This document shows positions 52,896 to 59,961 of a stretch of DNA of 64,000 bases, in pieces. Made by a program: the position numbers and the translations under genes. This DNA comes from Rhodobiaceae bacterium (GTDB lineage: Bacteria > Pseudomonadota > Alphaproteobacteria > RS24), in assembly GCA_024645085.1 (NCBI GenBank), contig JAHEGN010000012.1, forward strand, positions 1-64,000, written 5' to 3'. Under the pieces are notes generated by a model that was given only the letters and a program-made list of their open reading frames with translations, was not told the DNA's origin and ran no database searches. Within the stretch, counting starts at the first letter, position 1. Every line of letters starts with the position of its first letter.

Positions 52896-52999
52896 AGTTT
52901 GGCGGTTCGGAAAATATTTTGAATTTGCGACAATCTGCCCTTGTTCTTGGCCCAAGAATGTCATTAAACTTTCAGATAAGTAAGTGGAGGAGAGTAATC

Positions 53000-55261
53000 A
53001 TGGCACATCCATCTTTTAATCGTAAGCAGGCGACAACAATCAATGTCGTCGCGCTTGGCATAATTTCGTTAATGGTTCTGATCGGCCTGTCGCCGTCAGA
53101 CAAAACATCATCAAGCCAAGCGCCGCAAACCGGTGCCACGGCCAGTGATACATTAGGTCAAATTGACACCACGCGCATTGTCAACGCAGATGCCGCGCCC
53201 GGTGATTGGTTGGCTTATGGTCGCGACTATCGTGAGCAGCGTTTCTCGCCGCTGACCCAAATCAATAAAGACAGTATTGATGAGCTGGAACTGGCTTGGT
53301 CATTTGACATGCTCACCACGCGTGGTCTTGAGGCGTCGCCAATTGTCGCCGACGGGGTGATGTATATGACCGGCTCGTGGAGTGTGGTGTATGCGGTTGA
53401 TGCGAAAACCGGTGAAGAGCTGTGGTCATATGACCCAGAAGTGCCCGGCGATTGGGCCCGCAAAGCGTGTTGCGACGTCGTCAATCGCGGCGTTGCGGTG
53501 TACGACGGCGCCGTCTATGTCGCCAGCCTTGATGGCTATTTGATTGCCTTAAATGCGCAAAACGGTGAAGTGATCTGGCGCAAAAACACAATTATTGATC
53601 GCGCGCGCGCCTATACAATCACTGGCGCGCCACGGGTTGCCAATGGCCGTGTGTTCATCGGCAATGGCGGCGGCGAATATGGTGTGCGTGGCTATGTCAC
53701 CGCCTATGATGCCAAAACCGGCGAGCAAGACTGGCGCTTCTACACAGTGCCAGGCGATCCATCGAAACCATTTGAGCATCCTGAAATGGAAGAAGCCGCC
53801 GCCACTTGGAAAGGTGGCGAGTGGTGGAAAATCGGCGGTGGCGGCACGGTTTGGAATTCCATCGTTTATGACCCGGATACAGACACAGTGTTCTTAGGCG
53901 TCGGCAATGGCTCGCCTTGGACACGGTCGATTCGTTCGCCAGGCGGTGGTGATAATTTATTCTTATCCTCTATTGTGGCGCTTGACCCCAATACCGGCCG
54001 CAAGAAATGGCACTATCAAACAACCCCGGGCGACACATGGGACTACACAGCCGTGCAAGACATGATGTTGGCCGATATGGAAATCGACGGCAAACAGCGC
54101 AAAGTGATTATGCAAGCCCCGAAAAATGGCTTCTTCTATGTGCTTGACCGCGCCACAGGCGAATTATTGCGCGCCAATCCATATGTCGCGGTGAACTGGG
54201 CCAGCCATATTGATATGGCCACAGGCCGTCCGGTGGAAATCGCCGAACGCGATTGGAACAGCAGCAAAAAGTCAGCCTGGATTCTGCCGGGCCCGCTCGG
54301 CGGTCACAATTGGCAGGCCATGTCGTTTAACCCCGACACTGGCTTGGTTTATATTCCAGCCATGGAAAGCCCGTTGGTCTATGATGTAGATCATGATTTC
54401 AAAGCCACGGGTCGCTATAAATATATTGAAGGCGGTTGGAACACGGGCATTGAATTTGGCCGTTTGCTCGAAGTCATGGGCAATCACCCTGATCTGCCAC
54501 CAGCCAAGGGCTATATCACGGCTTTTGACCCGTTGACCGGTAAAACTCATTGGGTCAAAGAACACGGCACCCATTGGAATGGCGGCACGCTCTCAACGGC
54601 AGCTGGCCTTGTTTTCCAAGGCAATGGCGATGGCTTTATTGTCGCTTATGACGCCAAAACCGGCGCTGAAGTTTGGAAAGTCAACACTTACACCAGCATT
54701 ATTGCGCCGCCGGTTACCTATATGGTTGATGGCGAGCAATATATTGCCATTCAAGTTGGTTCTGGTGGTGCCGCTGGCCTCACTGAAGGCGATGCAGCCA
54801 CCCCGGCTTCTGCCAAATATGGCAATTTCGGGCGCCTTGTTGCCTTTAAGCTGAATGGTGGTTTGTCGATTGAGGAGCCAGAAAGCTGGGCGCGGGAAAT
54901 TCCTGAGCCACCAGTGATCAATGCCTCAGCTGAGCAAATTGACCGTGGCATGGAAAAATACCATGAGGTCTGCACCTTCTGCCATGGCATTGGTGTTTAT
55001 GGCGGGGCTGTGGTGCCAGATTTGCGCAAAATGAGCCCGCAAACCCACCGCATGTTCAAAGAGATTGTGCTTGAGGGGCTGCTCGAAGATCGCGGCATGT
55101 CAAACTTCTCAGATCGTTTGAACGAGCAAGATGTTGAAGATATTTACGCCTTCATCAACGCCCGTGCTTGGCAAGATTATAGCTTGCAAGAAGACGCCAA
55201 AAAAGCGGCGACGGGCGATAAGACAAGTGCCCTCGAAGTCACTGCGCCAGCGGTGCGCTAA
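53000..55261 (+). CDS. PQQ-dependent alcohol dehydrogenase with cytochrome c domain
   Basis: A 753-residue periplasmic quinohemoprotein. An N-terminal span (about 15-33) anchors or exports it. The eight-bladed propeller starts at about 80, with tryptophan-docking repeats such as LYVFD-type YAVDAKTGEELWSYD and ALDPNTGRKKWHYQ. The vicinal cysteines C157-C158 in KACCDVV form the PQQ-contacting disulfide. Catalytic Asp lies in GDTWDYTA; the +2 residue is Thr, not Asp, so it looks calcium- rather than lanthanide-dependent. The C-terminal haem c site is CTFCH (about 658-662). An AGTGGAGGAG ribosome site fixes the start at 53000. It ends four bases into a convergent gene. Confidence 0.93.
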   Translation: MAHPSFNRKQATTINVVALGIISLMVLIGLSPSDKTSSSQAPQTGATASDTLGQIDTTRIVNADAAPGDWLAYGRDYREQRFSPLTQINKDSIDELELAWSFDMLTTRGLEASPIVADGVMYMTGSWSVVYAVDAKTGEELWSYDPEVPGDWARKACCDVVNRGVAVYDGAVYVASLDGYLIALNAQNGEVIWRKNTIIDRARAYTITGAPRVANGRVFIGNGGGEYGVRGYVTAYDAKTGEQDWRFYTVPGDPSKPFEHPEMEEAAATWKGGEWWKIGGGGTVWNSIVYDPDTDTVFLGVGNGSPWTRSIRSPGGGDNLFLSSIVALDPNTGRKKWHYQTTPGDTWDYTAVQDMMLADMEIDGKQRKVIMQAPKNGFFYVLDRATGELLRANPYVAVNWASHIDMATGRPVEIAERDWNSSKKSAWILPGPLGGHNWQAMSFNPDTGLVYIPAMESPLVYDVDHDFKATGRYKYIEGGWNTGIEFGRLLEVMGNHPDLPPAKGYITAFDPLTGKTHWVKEHGTHWNGGTLSTAAGLVFQGNGDGFIVAYDAKTGAEVWKVNTYTSIIAPPVTYMVDGEQYIAIQVGSGGAAGLTEGDAATPASAKYGNFGRLVAFKLNGGLSIEEPESWAREIPEPPVINASAEQIDRGMEKYHEVCTFCHGIGVYGGAVVPDLRKMSPQTHRMFKEIVLEGLLEDRGMSNFSDRLNEQDVEDIYAFINARAWQDYSLQEDAKKAATGDKTSALEVTAPAVR

Positions 55262-55815
55262 CGGGCAGACTTTGGCGGCAAGCTCGGCGCTGGTAATTCT
55301 CTGAATTCCAGTTTCAGCCGATCTTTATCGCCTTCAGAATCGGGACGGCTTTTTTGGCCGTCCCTTTTTTGTGACTTTTTATCCTCGTCTGGATTGGCCG
55401 CCTTATAGCTCAAATTTGCTTCCAATGGCTTGCCATTGTCGACCTCTTTCAGCGCCTCATCAATTTGCTCAGCCAATTCTGGCGAAAACGGCAATTGATA
55501 AAGCCGCGGGCGGGCCATCAGCGCGCCATGTTCGGATAGAGCTTGCGCCAGAATATAAATCGCGCCATCGGTTTTTTGTGCCTTATCAGGCTCCTCAACC
55601 ACGGCCCAGTGCAGTTTGAACGGATTGGGCGGGGTTTGCGCAATGGCCCAGCCGCGCAATTCCTGCGTGCCCTGATAAGCGGCAAAATACAGCAAGGTTA
55701 CCAAGCCAATGGCTGCCAACTTAATTTCATGGCGCCAAGATGTGTTGAGATTGAGGTTGAGCAGCAAGGCCGCCAATAGCGCATAGGCGACACCGAGCAT
55801 CAGAGGAATGGTCAT
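55258..55815 (-). CDS. two-span membrane protein of a MotA/ExbD-like operon, unknown family
   Basis: A 185-residue protein I do not recognise. Two spans lie at about 4-22 and 31-48. A compact soluble part follows (about 60-135) with NPFKLHWAVVEEPDK, AIYILAQAL and RPRLYQLPFSPELAEQIDEA. The last 50 residues are charged and low in complexity (KKSQKRDGQKSRPDSEGDKD). It is the third gene of a leftward trio; its start overlaps the upstream gene by four bases (ATGA). An intrinsic terminator of the opposite strand is embedded in the part coding for the charged tail. Probably an accessory subunit of the same complex. Confidence 0.7.
   Translation of the reverse strand: MTIPLMLGVAYALLAALLLNLNLNTSWRHEIKLAAIGLVTLLYFAAYQGTQELRGWAIAQTPPNPFKLHWAVVEEPDKAQKTDGAIYILAQALSEHGALMARPRLYQLPFSPELAEQIDEALKEVDNGKPLEANLSYKAANPDEDKKSQKRDGQKSRPDSEGDKDRLKLEFRELPAPSLPPKSAR
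55342..55370 (+). terminator. Rho-independent terminator for the PQQ dehydrogenase, inside an opposing gene
   Basis: GGGACGGC and GCCGTCCC form a perfect 8-bp stem with a 7-base loop, followed by TTTTTT. It lies 81 bases after the PQQ dehydrogenase stop and within the coding region of the convergent gene. No T-run follows on the other strand, so it works in the rightward direction only. Confidence 0.88.
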
Positions 55816-56447
55816 TGGCTACCTGCCTTTTGTTGTTCAACCGGATTGGCGCGAATGAGCAATTTATTGCGCCGCGCCATTTCCACCACATTGCCAGCCG
55901 CATCAAGGCGGAAGCGAATGGCGGTCTGTTCGTCACCGGCACCCGCTAGCGTATTATTGCCAGCGTAAATCAGCGTCACTTGCGGATTGAGTTTTTCAAC
56001 CTTCACCTTAACCTCCACCGGCCGTTTGGTCGGCGATTTATAGTGCAATAAATTGACCACATATTCGCCTGCCGCAATGCCGCGCAGGGTCACAATTTCT
56101 TGGTTCAGCGGATTTTCAATGCGCTGACCATTGACCGTAATATTGTCGCCGAGCGCCCCGCGGTCATCGCGGTCAAGGTGCATCAGCCCAGCCTCGCGCG
56201 TGTCAAACCAAACAAGATTGCCTTCACCATCCTCAACAATCAGATCCACATCATCAGTGTGACCATCCGGCCATTGGGCGGTAATCATAAATTCAGCTTT
56301 TGGCGAGATTTTGCCATCGGGAATTTGCGGCCGAATAAGAATAAAGGCGACAAAAAACATGAAGGCAAAACCAAGCAACGCATTGAATAAAATATCGGTA
56401 AAAGCGTTTTGGTCTTCGGCCGGTGTTTGCAGGCGGCGTCCGATCAT
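55812..56447 (-). CDS. ExbD/MotB-like one-span protein with YfaP/DUF2135-like domain
   Basis: A 211-residue protein. One N-terminal span (about 19-39, ILFNALLGFAFMFFVAFILI) is preceded by Asp18 (FTDILFN), placed like the proton-carrying Asp of MotB, TolR and ExbD. The periplasmic part (40-211) is beta-rich. Its stretch DDVDLIVEDGEGNLVWFDT followed by HLDRDDRGALGDN recalls YfaP/DUF2135 domains. No OmpA peptidoglycan-binding domain is present. It overlaps both neighbours by four bases (ATGA). By architecture it is the stator partner of the MotA/TolQ-like protein. Function unknown. Confidence 0.72.
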   Translation of the reverse strand: MIGRRLQTPAEDQNAFTDILFNALLGFAFMFFVAFILIRPQIPDGKISPKAEFMITAQWPDGHTDDVDLIVEDGEGNLVWFDTREAGLMHLDRDDRGALGDNITVNGQRIENPLNQEIVTLRGIAAGEYVVNLLHYKSPTKRPVEVKVKVEKLNPQVTLIYAGNNTLAGAGDEQTAIRFRLDAAGNVVEMARRNKLLIRANPVEQQKAGSQ

Positions 56448-57121
56448 AGCGTTTCCTGCTCACTCATCCGCAGAAGAAGATGTTGCATGGAATCGGCGAG
56501 AAACTGGAATTGCACGCGCAGCAATAAATTGCTCACCAGTCCGGTCAGAGTGGTGTATAGCGCCACCGCCATGCCGCCGCTCATTTGGCCCAGCGCCGCT
56601 TGCAGGCTGGCAGGCTCAAAGCTTTGCATAGCGGCAATTGGCGCCAGCATTAAAATAAAGCCGATAATCGTCCCCAAAAGCCCAAGCTTGAGCACCGCAT
56701 CACAGGCAAACCAGCCATGGTTTAGCCAACGCGCCATAATGGTCTCGGTAATGTCGATAGGCTGGCCGCGCAAATCGCCAATGTCACGATTTTTCTGTTG
56801 CACCCAGAGCAGCAGATATAGCCAGCGTGCGCTCATCGCCAGCCAAATGCCAATAATCCCCCAAGAAATGCGGCTATTGTCGCCCTCCAGCAAAAGCGCC
56901 ATAAGGCCGCGCTCATATAGCAGATAGATACCAAAAATTATCAGGCCCAATAAAATAAGCCCCTGCATGAATGATTTATTGGCGTTCAAATGCGTTTCGA
57001 CCACGATAACTCTCCCCGCGAAAACTGCCGCCAGTTTAAGCAAGCCAAGCCATAGTGTCGACCCCATGAGCGCTAAATTAAACCCGCTTTGGCTGGTCAA
57101 ATTGCTTGCAAAAAAAGCCAA
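56444..57121 (-). CDS. MotA/TolQ/ExbB-like proton-channel protein
   Basis: A 225-residue membrane protein. Spans lie near 52-68, 86-106, 144-164 and 181-201. The MotA/TolQ/ExbB domain is at about 140-215: LGLLGTIIGFILML, then MSGGMAVALYTTLTGLVSNL with the Thr-rich third-helix pattern (T190, T191, T193) of TolQ and ExbB. First gene of the leftward trio. It lacks the long cytoplasmic torque-generating loop of flagellar MotA. No TonB, TolA, TolB or Pal gene is adjacent, so it is not the usual Tol or Ton system. The start lies 34 bases from the divergent transporter gene. Confidence 0.8.
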   Translation of the reverse strand: MAFFASNLTSQSGFNLALMGSTLWLGLLKLAAVFAGRVIVVETHLNANKSFMQGLILLGLIIFGIYLLYERGLMALLLEGDNSRISWGIIGIWLAMSARWLYLLLWVQQKNRDIGDLRGQPIDITETIMARWLNHGWFACDAVLKLGLLGTIIGFILMLAPIAAMQSFEPASLQAALGQMSGGMAVALYTTLTGLVSNLLLRVQFQFLADSMQHLLLRMSEQETL

Positions 57122-58605: not shown

Positions 58606-59961
58606 ATGATGAAATTTAAGCATTTGGGGCTGGTGGTTGCACTTGCCTTGGCCACGGTTCAAGGCGCGCAGGCAGCTGATGCATCGCTTTTGGGCAGTAA
58701 ACTCACACCACTTGGTTCAGATCCGTCGGCCTCAAGCGATGGCACGATTCCGGCATGGACGGGGGGTATCACGTCGCCACCGGCTGGCTATGTGAAGGGC
58801 GAAGACCATATTGACCCTTATGCAGATGATAAAATTCTTTTCTCCATCACCGCTGAAAATCTCGCCAAACACAAAGACCGTTTGAGCGCTGGCCAGCAAG
58901 CCATGTTCGCGCGTCATCCGCAAAGCTATCGCATGGATATTTATCCGACGCGGCGCAGCTGTTCCTTGCCAGAAGCAGTGTATCAAGCGACCAAAGAAAA
59001 CGCCAAAAACGCGCAATTGCTCAATGATGGCAATAATATTGGCGGCGCCCGCATTGGCGTGCCTTTCCCGATTCCACAATCAGCGATTGAGATTTACTGG
59101 AACCATAATTTCCATTGGCACGGTCACCGTTACCACGCCAAAACATCTGGCGCCGGTGTCGAGCCGAACGGCACGATCACCCGCATTGTGCGTGAAGACT
59201 GGCGCTATAATTTTTACGCCGACCCAGAAATGTCGTTGGACGAGTTGGAAAACCGTCAGTTTGATTGGATGGGCATATGGACAGCGCCGCCGCGCTTTAA
59301 CGGGGCTGGCTTTTCGATGACCAATACCATTGACCAGACCGTGCAACCGCGTGAGGGTTCAATGTTCCGCCCTGATTTGCGCAAAATTATGCGCGCCACA
59401 CCGGCTGCCGCCACTTATGACGGGCCGCTGAGCACCTCGGCTGGTTTGCGCCAGAATGATAATATGTTCTTGTTCAGTGGCGCGCCTGATCGCTATGAGT
59501 GGAAAATTGTCGGCAAGCGTGAGATGTATGTGCCTTACAACGCCTATAAAGCTTCATCAACCGCCAATGATCCGGCTGATTTAATGACGCCAAATCATTT
59601 GAACCCAGATTTTCTGCGCTATGAATTGCATCGCGTTTGGGTCATTGAAGCCACCGGCAAGCCGGGCATAATAATGAATTATGGCCGCCGCACCTTCTAT
59701 GTCGACGAGGACAGCTGGATTTTCCTTGAAGCCGATTTATACGATCAGCAGGGCGAGCTAACCCGCACTCAGCATGCTTTCATCAAAAATTATTATGAAG
59801 CACCAGCCTGCGTATTTGAATTTGACGTGATGCATGATTTGGCCAGTGGCCGCTATAATGTTGATCACATTAAAAACGAATATGGGCCAGCCGATCTTGA
59901 TTATGACTTGCGCCAGCGTGATTTTGGTTCAAGCGCTTTGAAACGCAGAATTGGACGTTAG
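58606..59961 (+). CDS. exported DUF1329 protein
   Basis: A 451-residue exported protein. Signal peptide to about residue 24 (VQGAQAADA). DUF1329 landmarks follow: LTPLGSDPSASSDGTIPAWTGG written as two parts (LTPLG... and GTIPAWTGGI), then HPQSYRMDIYPTRRSCSLP and GARIGVPFPIPQSAIEIYWNH. The family is thought to adopt a LolA/LolB-like fold. It occurs with RND transporters and DUF1302 proteins in gammaproteobacterial sterol and lipid gene groups; here those partners are absent. A GGGGAGAG ribosome site precedes the ATG. Its stop overlaps a GTG start (TAGTG). Confidence 0.88.
   Translation: MMKFKHLGLVVALALATVQGAQAADASLLGSKLTPLGSDPSASSDGTIPAWTGGITSPPAGYVKGEDHIDPYADDKILFSITAENLAKHKDRLSAGQQAMFARHPQSYRMDIYPTRRSCSLPEAVYQATKENAKNAQLLNDGNNIGGARIGVPFPIPQSAIEIYWNHNFHWHGHRYHAKTSGAGVEPNGTITRIVREDWRYNFYADPEMSLDELENRQFDWMGIWTAPPRFNGAGFSMTNTIDQTVQPREGSMFRPDLRKIMRATPAAATYDGPLSTSAGLRQNDNMFLFSGAPDRYEWKIVGKREMYVPYNAYKASSTANDPADLMTPNHLNPDFLRYELHRVWVIEATGKPGIIMNYGRRTFYVDEDSWIFLEADLYDQQGELTRTQHAFIKNYYEAPACVFEFDVMHDLASGRYNVDHIKNEYGPADLDYDLRQRDFGSSALKRRIGR

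Follow-up and report, generated by a model that had tools for sequence, protein, structure and literature searches.

A phage-borne and proteobacterial gene trio related to proton-driven motors that may power a step in the handling of pyrroloquinoline quinone

A 64,000-nucleotide stretch of DNA from a Rhodobiaceae bacterium (assembly GCA_024645085.1, contig JAHEGN010000012.1, positions 1 to 64,000; hereafter the window) carries three leftward genes, A, B and C, whose products appear to be related to the proton-driven motors, a kinship so far unrecognised. Motors of this class are known to drive flagella and gliding, to energise uptake across the outer membrane, to maintain the integrity of the envelope and to serve in Zorya defence. 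We propose that the trio represents a new stator-type family and that its cellular branch energises a periplasmic step involving pyrroloquinoline quinone (PQQ) or quinoproteins, a reading to which we assign a probability of about 0.55 and for which we infer the assembly of the complex, the flow of protons and the exact step. That A, B and C form a stator-type complex is very probable, and a PQQ-related role of the cellular branch is favoured, although any one PQQ step that might be named, taken singly, is unlikely to be the one that is powered.

The open reading frames and the ATGA overlaps at both joints, reported at 55258–57121 in a preliminary description of the locus, were confirmed, and only the beginning of gene A required revision. 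It had been placed at TTG 57121, yielding a 225-residue open reading frame, and this is too early. Over the first 39 codons of that frame, differences from a sister genome are distributed 8/5/5 over the codon positions, without bias, as against 15/6/59 for the remainder. Moreover, GGGGAGAG, read as a ribosome-binding site, stands upstream of GTG 57004, and family homologues begin near that point. Because of the codon-position test, this upstream element and the lengths of the homologues, gene A most likely extends over 56444–57004 from a GTG start and encodes 186 amino acids. Gene B follows at 55812–56447 (211 amino acids) and gene C at 55258–55815 (185 amino acids), all on the minus strand.

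Gene A encodes a MotA/TolQ/ExbB-type subunit. The channel domain attributed to it earlier was borne out by a hidden Markov model (HMM) search of Pfam, where the protein matched PF01618 above the gathering score (E=2.7e-8, 34.1–34.6 bits against a cut-off of 22.9). The same family matches 16 of 17 A proteins, those of phages included (E<=0.1), and an A profile matched ZorA, TolQ, MotA and PomA chains among solved structures, with a best E-value of 4.5e-7. All 17 bacterial and phage A proteins compared have Asp42, Gly111 and Thr152, and at least 90% of them have Gly108. The last two hydrophobic segments contain the motifs GT-x-x-GF and TT-x-x-G, which can be aligned with MotA and PomA, and we take the Gly-Thr motif and the last-helix threonine to be equivalent to T148 and T181 of ExbB. 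In the numbering of the 225-residue frame the hydrophobic segments of window A lie at about residues 50–73, 89–107 and 146–164, with a fourth at about 183–205 assigned by inspection, and they form two hairpins joined by a middle loop of only about 35 residues. In the phage proteins, which are 138–148 amino acids long, this loop is almost absent; window A did not find them as a tblastn query, and profiles alone reach them. Judged by its sequence, A is a genuine MotA/TolQ/ExbB/ZorA homologue without a sizeable cytoplasmic domain.

The AlphaFold2 model of B (pLDDT, predicted local distance difference test, 88.9) contains a sole predicted membrane helix at residues 13–38, holding Asp18, and then an all-beta domain. 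Asp18 is invariant in 57 diverse B sequences, in agreement with the earlier view of a single span carrying an aspartate at an ExbD/MotB-like position ahead of a beta-rich periplasmic domain, and the motifs quoted for this domain are present as DDVDL and HLDRDDRG. Further invariant residues of the 57-row alignment include W59, D66, D68, D92, D94, D95, D101, N115 and E117, and the acidic cluster looks like a metal or ligand site. The ExbD-like fold with which the preliminary description had reckoned was not found: neither an ExbD/TolR nor an OmpA fold is seen in the model, and its confidently predicted all-beta domain is neither of alpha/beta nor of peptidoglycan-binding kind. Window B matched nothing in Pfam and NCBIfam even at E=10, ExbD, MotB_plug and OmpA included, and the B profile yielded nothing significant among PDB sequences. 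Foldseek gave no match to solved structures at E<=1e-3 and, in a viral library, found only multi-domain proteins with partial overlap. The suggested likeness to DUF2135, the YfaP-type domain, is seen at sub-threshold level: PF09906 is the commonest Pfam match in the family, but it does not reach the gathering score (7 of 57 members at E<=1, best 3e-4) and is not matched by window B, and in B the domain is fused to a stator-type transmembrane helix.

Gene C was described as encoding a two-span protein of no recognised family, and this holds. Its AlphaFold2 model (pLDDT 87.9) has two N-terminal helices, at residues 2–24 and 29–53, followed by a small periplasmic alpha/beta domain, and a C-terminal LPPK tail is conserved in a 99-row alignment. 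No match was obtained in Pfam or NCBIfam, nor by Foldseek among solved structures at E<=1e-3, and the C profile found nothing significant among PDB sequences.

The genes were sought with iterated HMMs in 97 bacterial and 86 viral loci, and all three were detected in 94 and 85 of them, respectively, with C occurring in 182 of the 183 loci that hold B. The order A-B-C is nearly universal (locus L050 reads A-C-B) and, since it recurs in several proteobacterial classes and in phages, a chance arrangement can be ruled out. B and C overlap at their joint in 45 of 85 bacterial loci and in 36 of 85 viral ones, by either 4 bases or 1 base. Gene B is present in 27 of 61 relatives. In a phylum sample it was found in 17 of 398 genomes, and there were 176 matching places in IMG/VR and 27 phage records that carry it, the latter all from Rhizobium or Sinorhizobium phages. 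It also occurs in at least 473 places of bacterial and archaeal genomes; the best 80 of these, being the matches closest to the window, were kept and come from the PS1 clade, SAR86, Pseudomonadales, other Gammaproteobacteria, Devosia and some genomes labelled Myxococcota.

In a B tree of 107 rows, 54 of the 55 bacterial rows of the main part form one clade (100/98), around which stand several viral lineages that are deeper and more divergent (node 82/81). A separate deep clade comprises phages 16-3 and X2_25, prophage L247 and Azospirillum-like chromosomal loci. Transfer of the trio from phage to cell is likely rather than established, because the tree is rooted at its midpoint only. An interpretation of the Azospirillum-like loci as prophages was not supported by the few neighbours checked, L247 alone being prophage-like. 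One trio on a 5-kb contig in a 0.8-Mb bacterial genome bin (L047, contig G049:C26) groups with the viral ones, and the contig is probably of phage origin.

Complete trios are found in isolated Rhizobium phages, where every gene is annotated "hypothetical", and none of the three phage proteins has a family in PHROGs. In phages N34 and P10VF (Pootjesviridae) the trio is flanked by gyrase/topoisomerase genes on one side and a late sigma-factor-like gene on the other, in N3_19 it stands amid replication genes, and in the temperate phage 16-3 it corresponds to p038, p040 and p042. At 16 IMG/VR loci the trio has a terminase large subunit family nearby, and at 11 a family of head-maturation proteases, and many of these contigs are therefore truly viral. 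Superinfection control, takeover of the envelope and control of the membrane potential are each possible functions of the phage trio, and a role in lysis was dropped as a general explanation because the Pootjesviridae trios sit amid replication genes. In 16-3, TM3_3_14B, X2_25 and prophage L247 a gene for a trypsin-like protease (phrog_9683) occurs directly, or one small gene, before A (L231:5244-6143, L235:4577-5224, L250:3093-3803 and L247:8489-9133).

In the window, gene C is met tail to tail by a plus-strand gene for a PQQ-dependent quinohemoprotein alcohol dehydrogenase (52919–55261; TIGR03075, 661 bits), which has a C-terminal cytochrome part and whose real start, as homologues suggest, lies near 53000. 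The two stop codons overlap in CTAA at 55258–55261, and the same arrangement is seen at many loci from SAR86, PS1 and Pseudomonadales. Of the neighbouring genes, that for a PQQ-dependent alcohol dehydrogenase alone is conserved in a majority of the bacterial loci (77 of 97). The quinohemoprotein form of the enzyme, containing CxxCH, is encoded convergently to C in 60 of 88 bacterial loci, at a gap of -4 to 328 bp and, for half of the loci, within about 5 bp. Distances between B proteins and between dehydrogenases are correlated (r=0.91 over 56 loci), and the linkage is held down to about 46% identity. Within the family of the window genome, a dehydrogenase orthologue is present in 19 of 19 genomes with the trio and in 0 of 9 without it, a comparison confounded by genus and by incomplete genomes. 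In the phylum sample, all 14 genomes with a main-branch trio, most of which belong to one genus, carry a PQQ dehydrogenase over the cut-off, compared with 95 of 398 overall.

The association takes several independent forms. Type I PQQ dehydrogenase genes lie upstream of the trio in Devosia (L115) and L130, where cytochrome c accompanies them, and likewise in L090 and L045; in four genomes (G287, G078, G302 and G343) a dehydrogenase lies 7–30 kb away; and in the Burkholderiales-like genome G078 (L239) the genes pqqB-pqqC-pqqE-A-B-C follow one another on one strand, pqqC being assigned by inspection. Several observations nonetheless weigh against a role in PQQ handling. A PQQ dehydrogenase was found in 0 of 86 viral trio loci, which rules out a core activity specific to PQQ. 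Among the Bradyrhizobium-like trios, the majority lack a PQQ dehydrogenase within about 7 kb, and an Azospirillum-like cellular branch shows no clear PQQ tie. The window dehydrogenase is encoded on the strand opposite to the trio and is thus not co-transcribed with it. Moreover, the genome scan retained those matches that most resembled the window, and loci that are related cannot count as independent cases.

The window genome, which is 99.65% complete, carries the PQQ dehydrogenase and has no PqqE or PqqB over the cut-off, and the same absence was recorded for eight other trio-bearing members of the family. In other clades with the convergent dehydrogenase, PqqE is missing from 14 of 14 genomes, whose completeness is not known. 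Trio genomes lacking the convergent form mostly have PqqE (10 of 10 Bradyrhizobium-like genomes, L113, L125, L129, L132, G053, G055, G078 and G302), the exceptions being Devosia, L130 and G287, and PqqE is missing from 18 of 44 genomes that carry a PQQ dehydrogenase and no trio. On these two grounds the idea that PQQ auxotrophy alone explains the trio was rejected, and the trio therefore tracks the use of PQQ and not only its scavenging. On contig C46 of the window genome, a TonB-dependent receptor weakly matches PqqU (51 bits, cut-off 1200).

A possible mechanism can be outlined. A, B and C would assemble as one inner-membrane machine, existing in a phage-borne and a cellular form, in which several A subunits, five by analogy, ring the transmembrane helices of a B dimer. 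Protons carried inward by Asp18 would cause B to turn or shift, and B would end in a beta domain resembling a metal- or ligand-binding one in place of a cell-wall anchor. C, apparently an obligatory third subunit, would sit beside A and B in the membrane and couple or gate the periplasmic motion and, since A has hardly any cytoplasmic domain, the work would be aimed entirely at the periplasm. The cellular form would most likely energise either the delivery or insertion of PQQ, or of its metal, into periplasmic quinoproteins or the retention and uptake of scavenged PQQ.

The trio shares with the 5:2 motors MotAB, TolQR and ExbBD the homologous A subunit, with its conserved Gly-Thr motif and last-helix threonine, and the single B span with a membrane aspartate. 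It differs in the near absence of a cytoplasmic domain from A, in a DUF2135-like all-beta domain in place of OmpA or ExbD folds, and in its obligatory third protein, its carriage by phages and its linkage to PQQ genes. It would be surprising if the trio were simply a Ton, Tol or Mot system that has diverged in sequence and kept its ordinary function: A does fall within their superfamily, but B lacks ExbD/TolR and MotB matches or folds, C belongs to no family, and the window genome holds four other PF01618 genes, all on other contigs. The absence of Tol, Ton and Mot genes nearby, remarked upon earlier, is upheld for PF01618 genes, with no dedicated search having been made for TonB, TolA and Pal. 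Likewise, the conserved neighbours in the window's branch include no TonB-dependent receptor, TonB itself not having been a target of the search, and one such receptor occurs at the related locus L243. In sum, the proton-driven stator-type layout put forward in the preliminary description gains partial support in that the trio is conserved and is distinct from Tol, Ton and Mot systems. Its carriage by phages and its linkage to PQQ genes, neither of which figured in that description, are the most informative additions. A belongs to a known superfamily and the trio as a whole is new within the ion-driven motor kind.

Another comparison is with Zorya, and an envelope defence or exclusion system of that kind, used by phages against competing phages and captured by bacteria for defence with the PQQ link being secondary, is improbable. 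ZorA is among the best solved relatives of A and the sole PADLOC family matched (7.5e-9 for phage 16-3, weakly for the window), phages hold the trio in early, replication or accessory regions, and its presence varies within one family. However, A matches only the channel part of ZorA and has no ZorA tail, B lacks the OmpA-like domain, B and C have no PADLOC match, no ZorC/D/E-type effector gene recurs beside the trio, and so close an association with PQQ genes in different lineages does not resemble a defence island. A regulated proton leak, performing no mechanical work, seems slightly less probable again; it would influence lysis timing or membrane potential in phages and relieve excess proton-motive force from periplasmic oxidation in bacteria. 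It would suit the minimal phage A proteins and the lysozyme and trypsin-like protease genes lying within a few kb of the trio in some Rhizobium phages and prophage L247, but neither C nor the conserved B beta domain with its invariant acidic cluster would be needed for a leak, and the Pootjesviridae trio lies amid replication genes. The PQQ link itself could reflect hitchhiking, the trio and a quinohemoprotein dehydrogenase having moved once as a functionally unconnected cassette. The correlated distances and the single B clade would allow most convergent cases to stem from one event, and small marine genomes are often densely packed. We nevertheless consider this unlikely, since varied layouts recur (upstream type I dehydrogenases, the pqqBCE operon and the looser proximity in four genomes), a gammaproteobacterial group has a glucose/sorbosone dehydrogenase-like neighbour, and the linkage persists between distant homologues.

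We therefore retain the reading of a stator-type family with a PQQ-related cellular branch. Described systems for the acquisition of PQQ include the TonB-dependent receptor PqqU and the binding protein PqqT (PMC12124388). These proteins are unrelated to the trio, which in its cellular form likewise accompanies PQQ-dependent dehydrogenases, in many cases where the genome has no PQQ synthesis of its own, and the main text of that paper mentions neither ExbB nor MotA. A description of the trio was not found in the literature searched, of which the coverage was incomplete such that an earlier mention is possible; key terms did not reveal the family in reviews of 5:2 motors, in recent evolutionary surveys or in papers on MotAB evolution, force transducers and phage AP-16-3.

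To our knowledge, no ion-driven motor of this kind has been reported from phages or from the PQQ system, and we are aware of little on how cytoplasmic PQQ, once synthesised, arrives at the enzymes of the periplasm or on how these are loaded. A conserved three-gene machine beside quinoproteins would allow delivery and loading to be tested in genera that can be cultivated, Devosia among them. The reason for phages to encode a proton-driven complex is a second question, approachable in the temperate phage 16-3. A broader and more tentative possibility, to which we lend less credence, is that tailed phages widely carry complete proton-driven stators of the new family, one lineage of which was adopted by proteobacteria and came to supply the energised part so far missing from periplasmic PQQ delivery or from the activation of quinoproteins.

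Other neighbours of the trio vary with lineage. In the gamma group (L113 and kin) a glucose/sorbosone dehydrogenase-like gene, a DUF302 gene and a VWA-FHA gene lie nearby, the last of these following C on the same strand (L113:10262-11782, L125:10208-11743 and kin), and upstream of the trio the L113/L125 subgroup has genes for DUF302, L,D-transpeptidase and cytochrome b561-like proteins. The occurrence of VWA genes next to TolQR-like motors has been described (PMC12204202). In six Bradyrhizobium-like loci (L238, L240, L241, L242, L244 and L245) the trio adjoins genes for a UhpB-like histidine kinase and a NarL-type response regulator, a pair homologous to that found beside the TonB receptor and a PQQ dehydrogenase in L243. 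Finally, a DUF1329-like gene, assigned by eye, occurs as a single copy at 58606–59961 in the window and as a tandem pair in L038 and L039.

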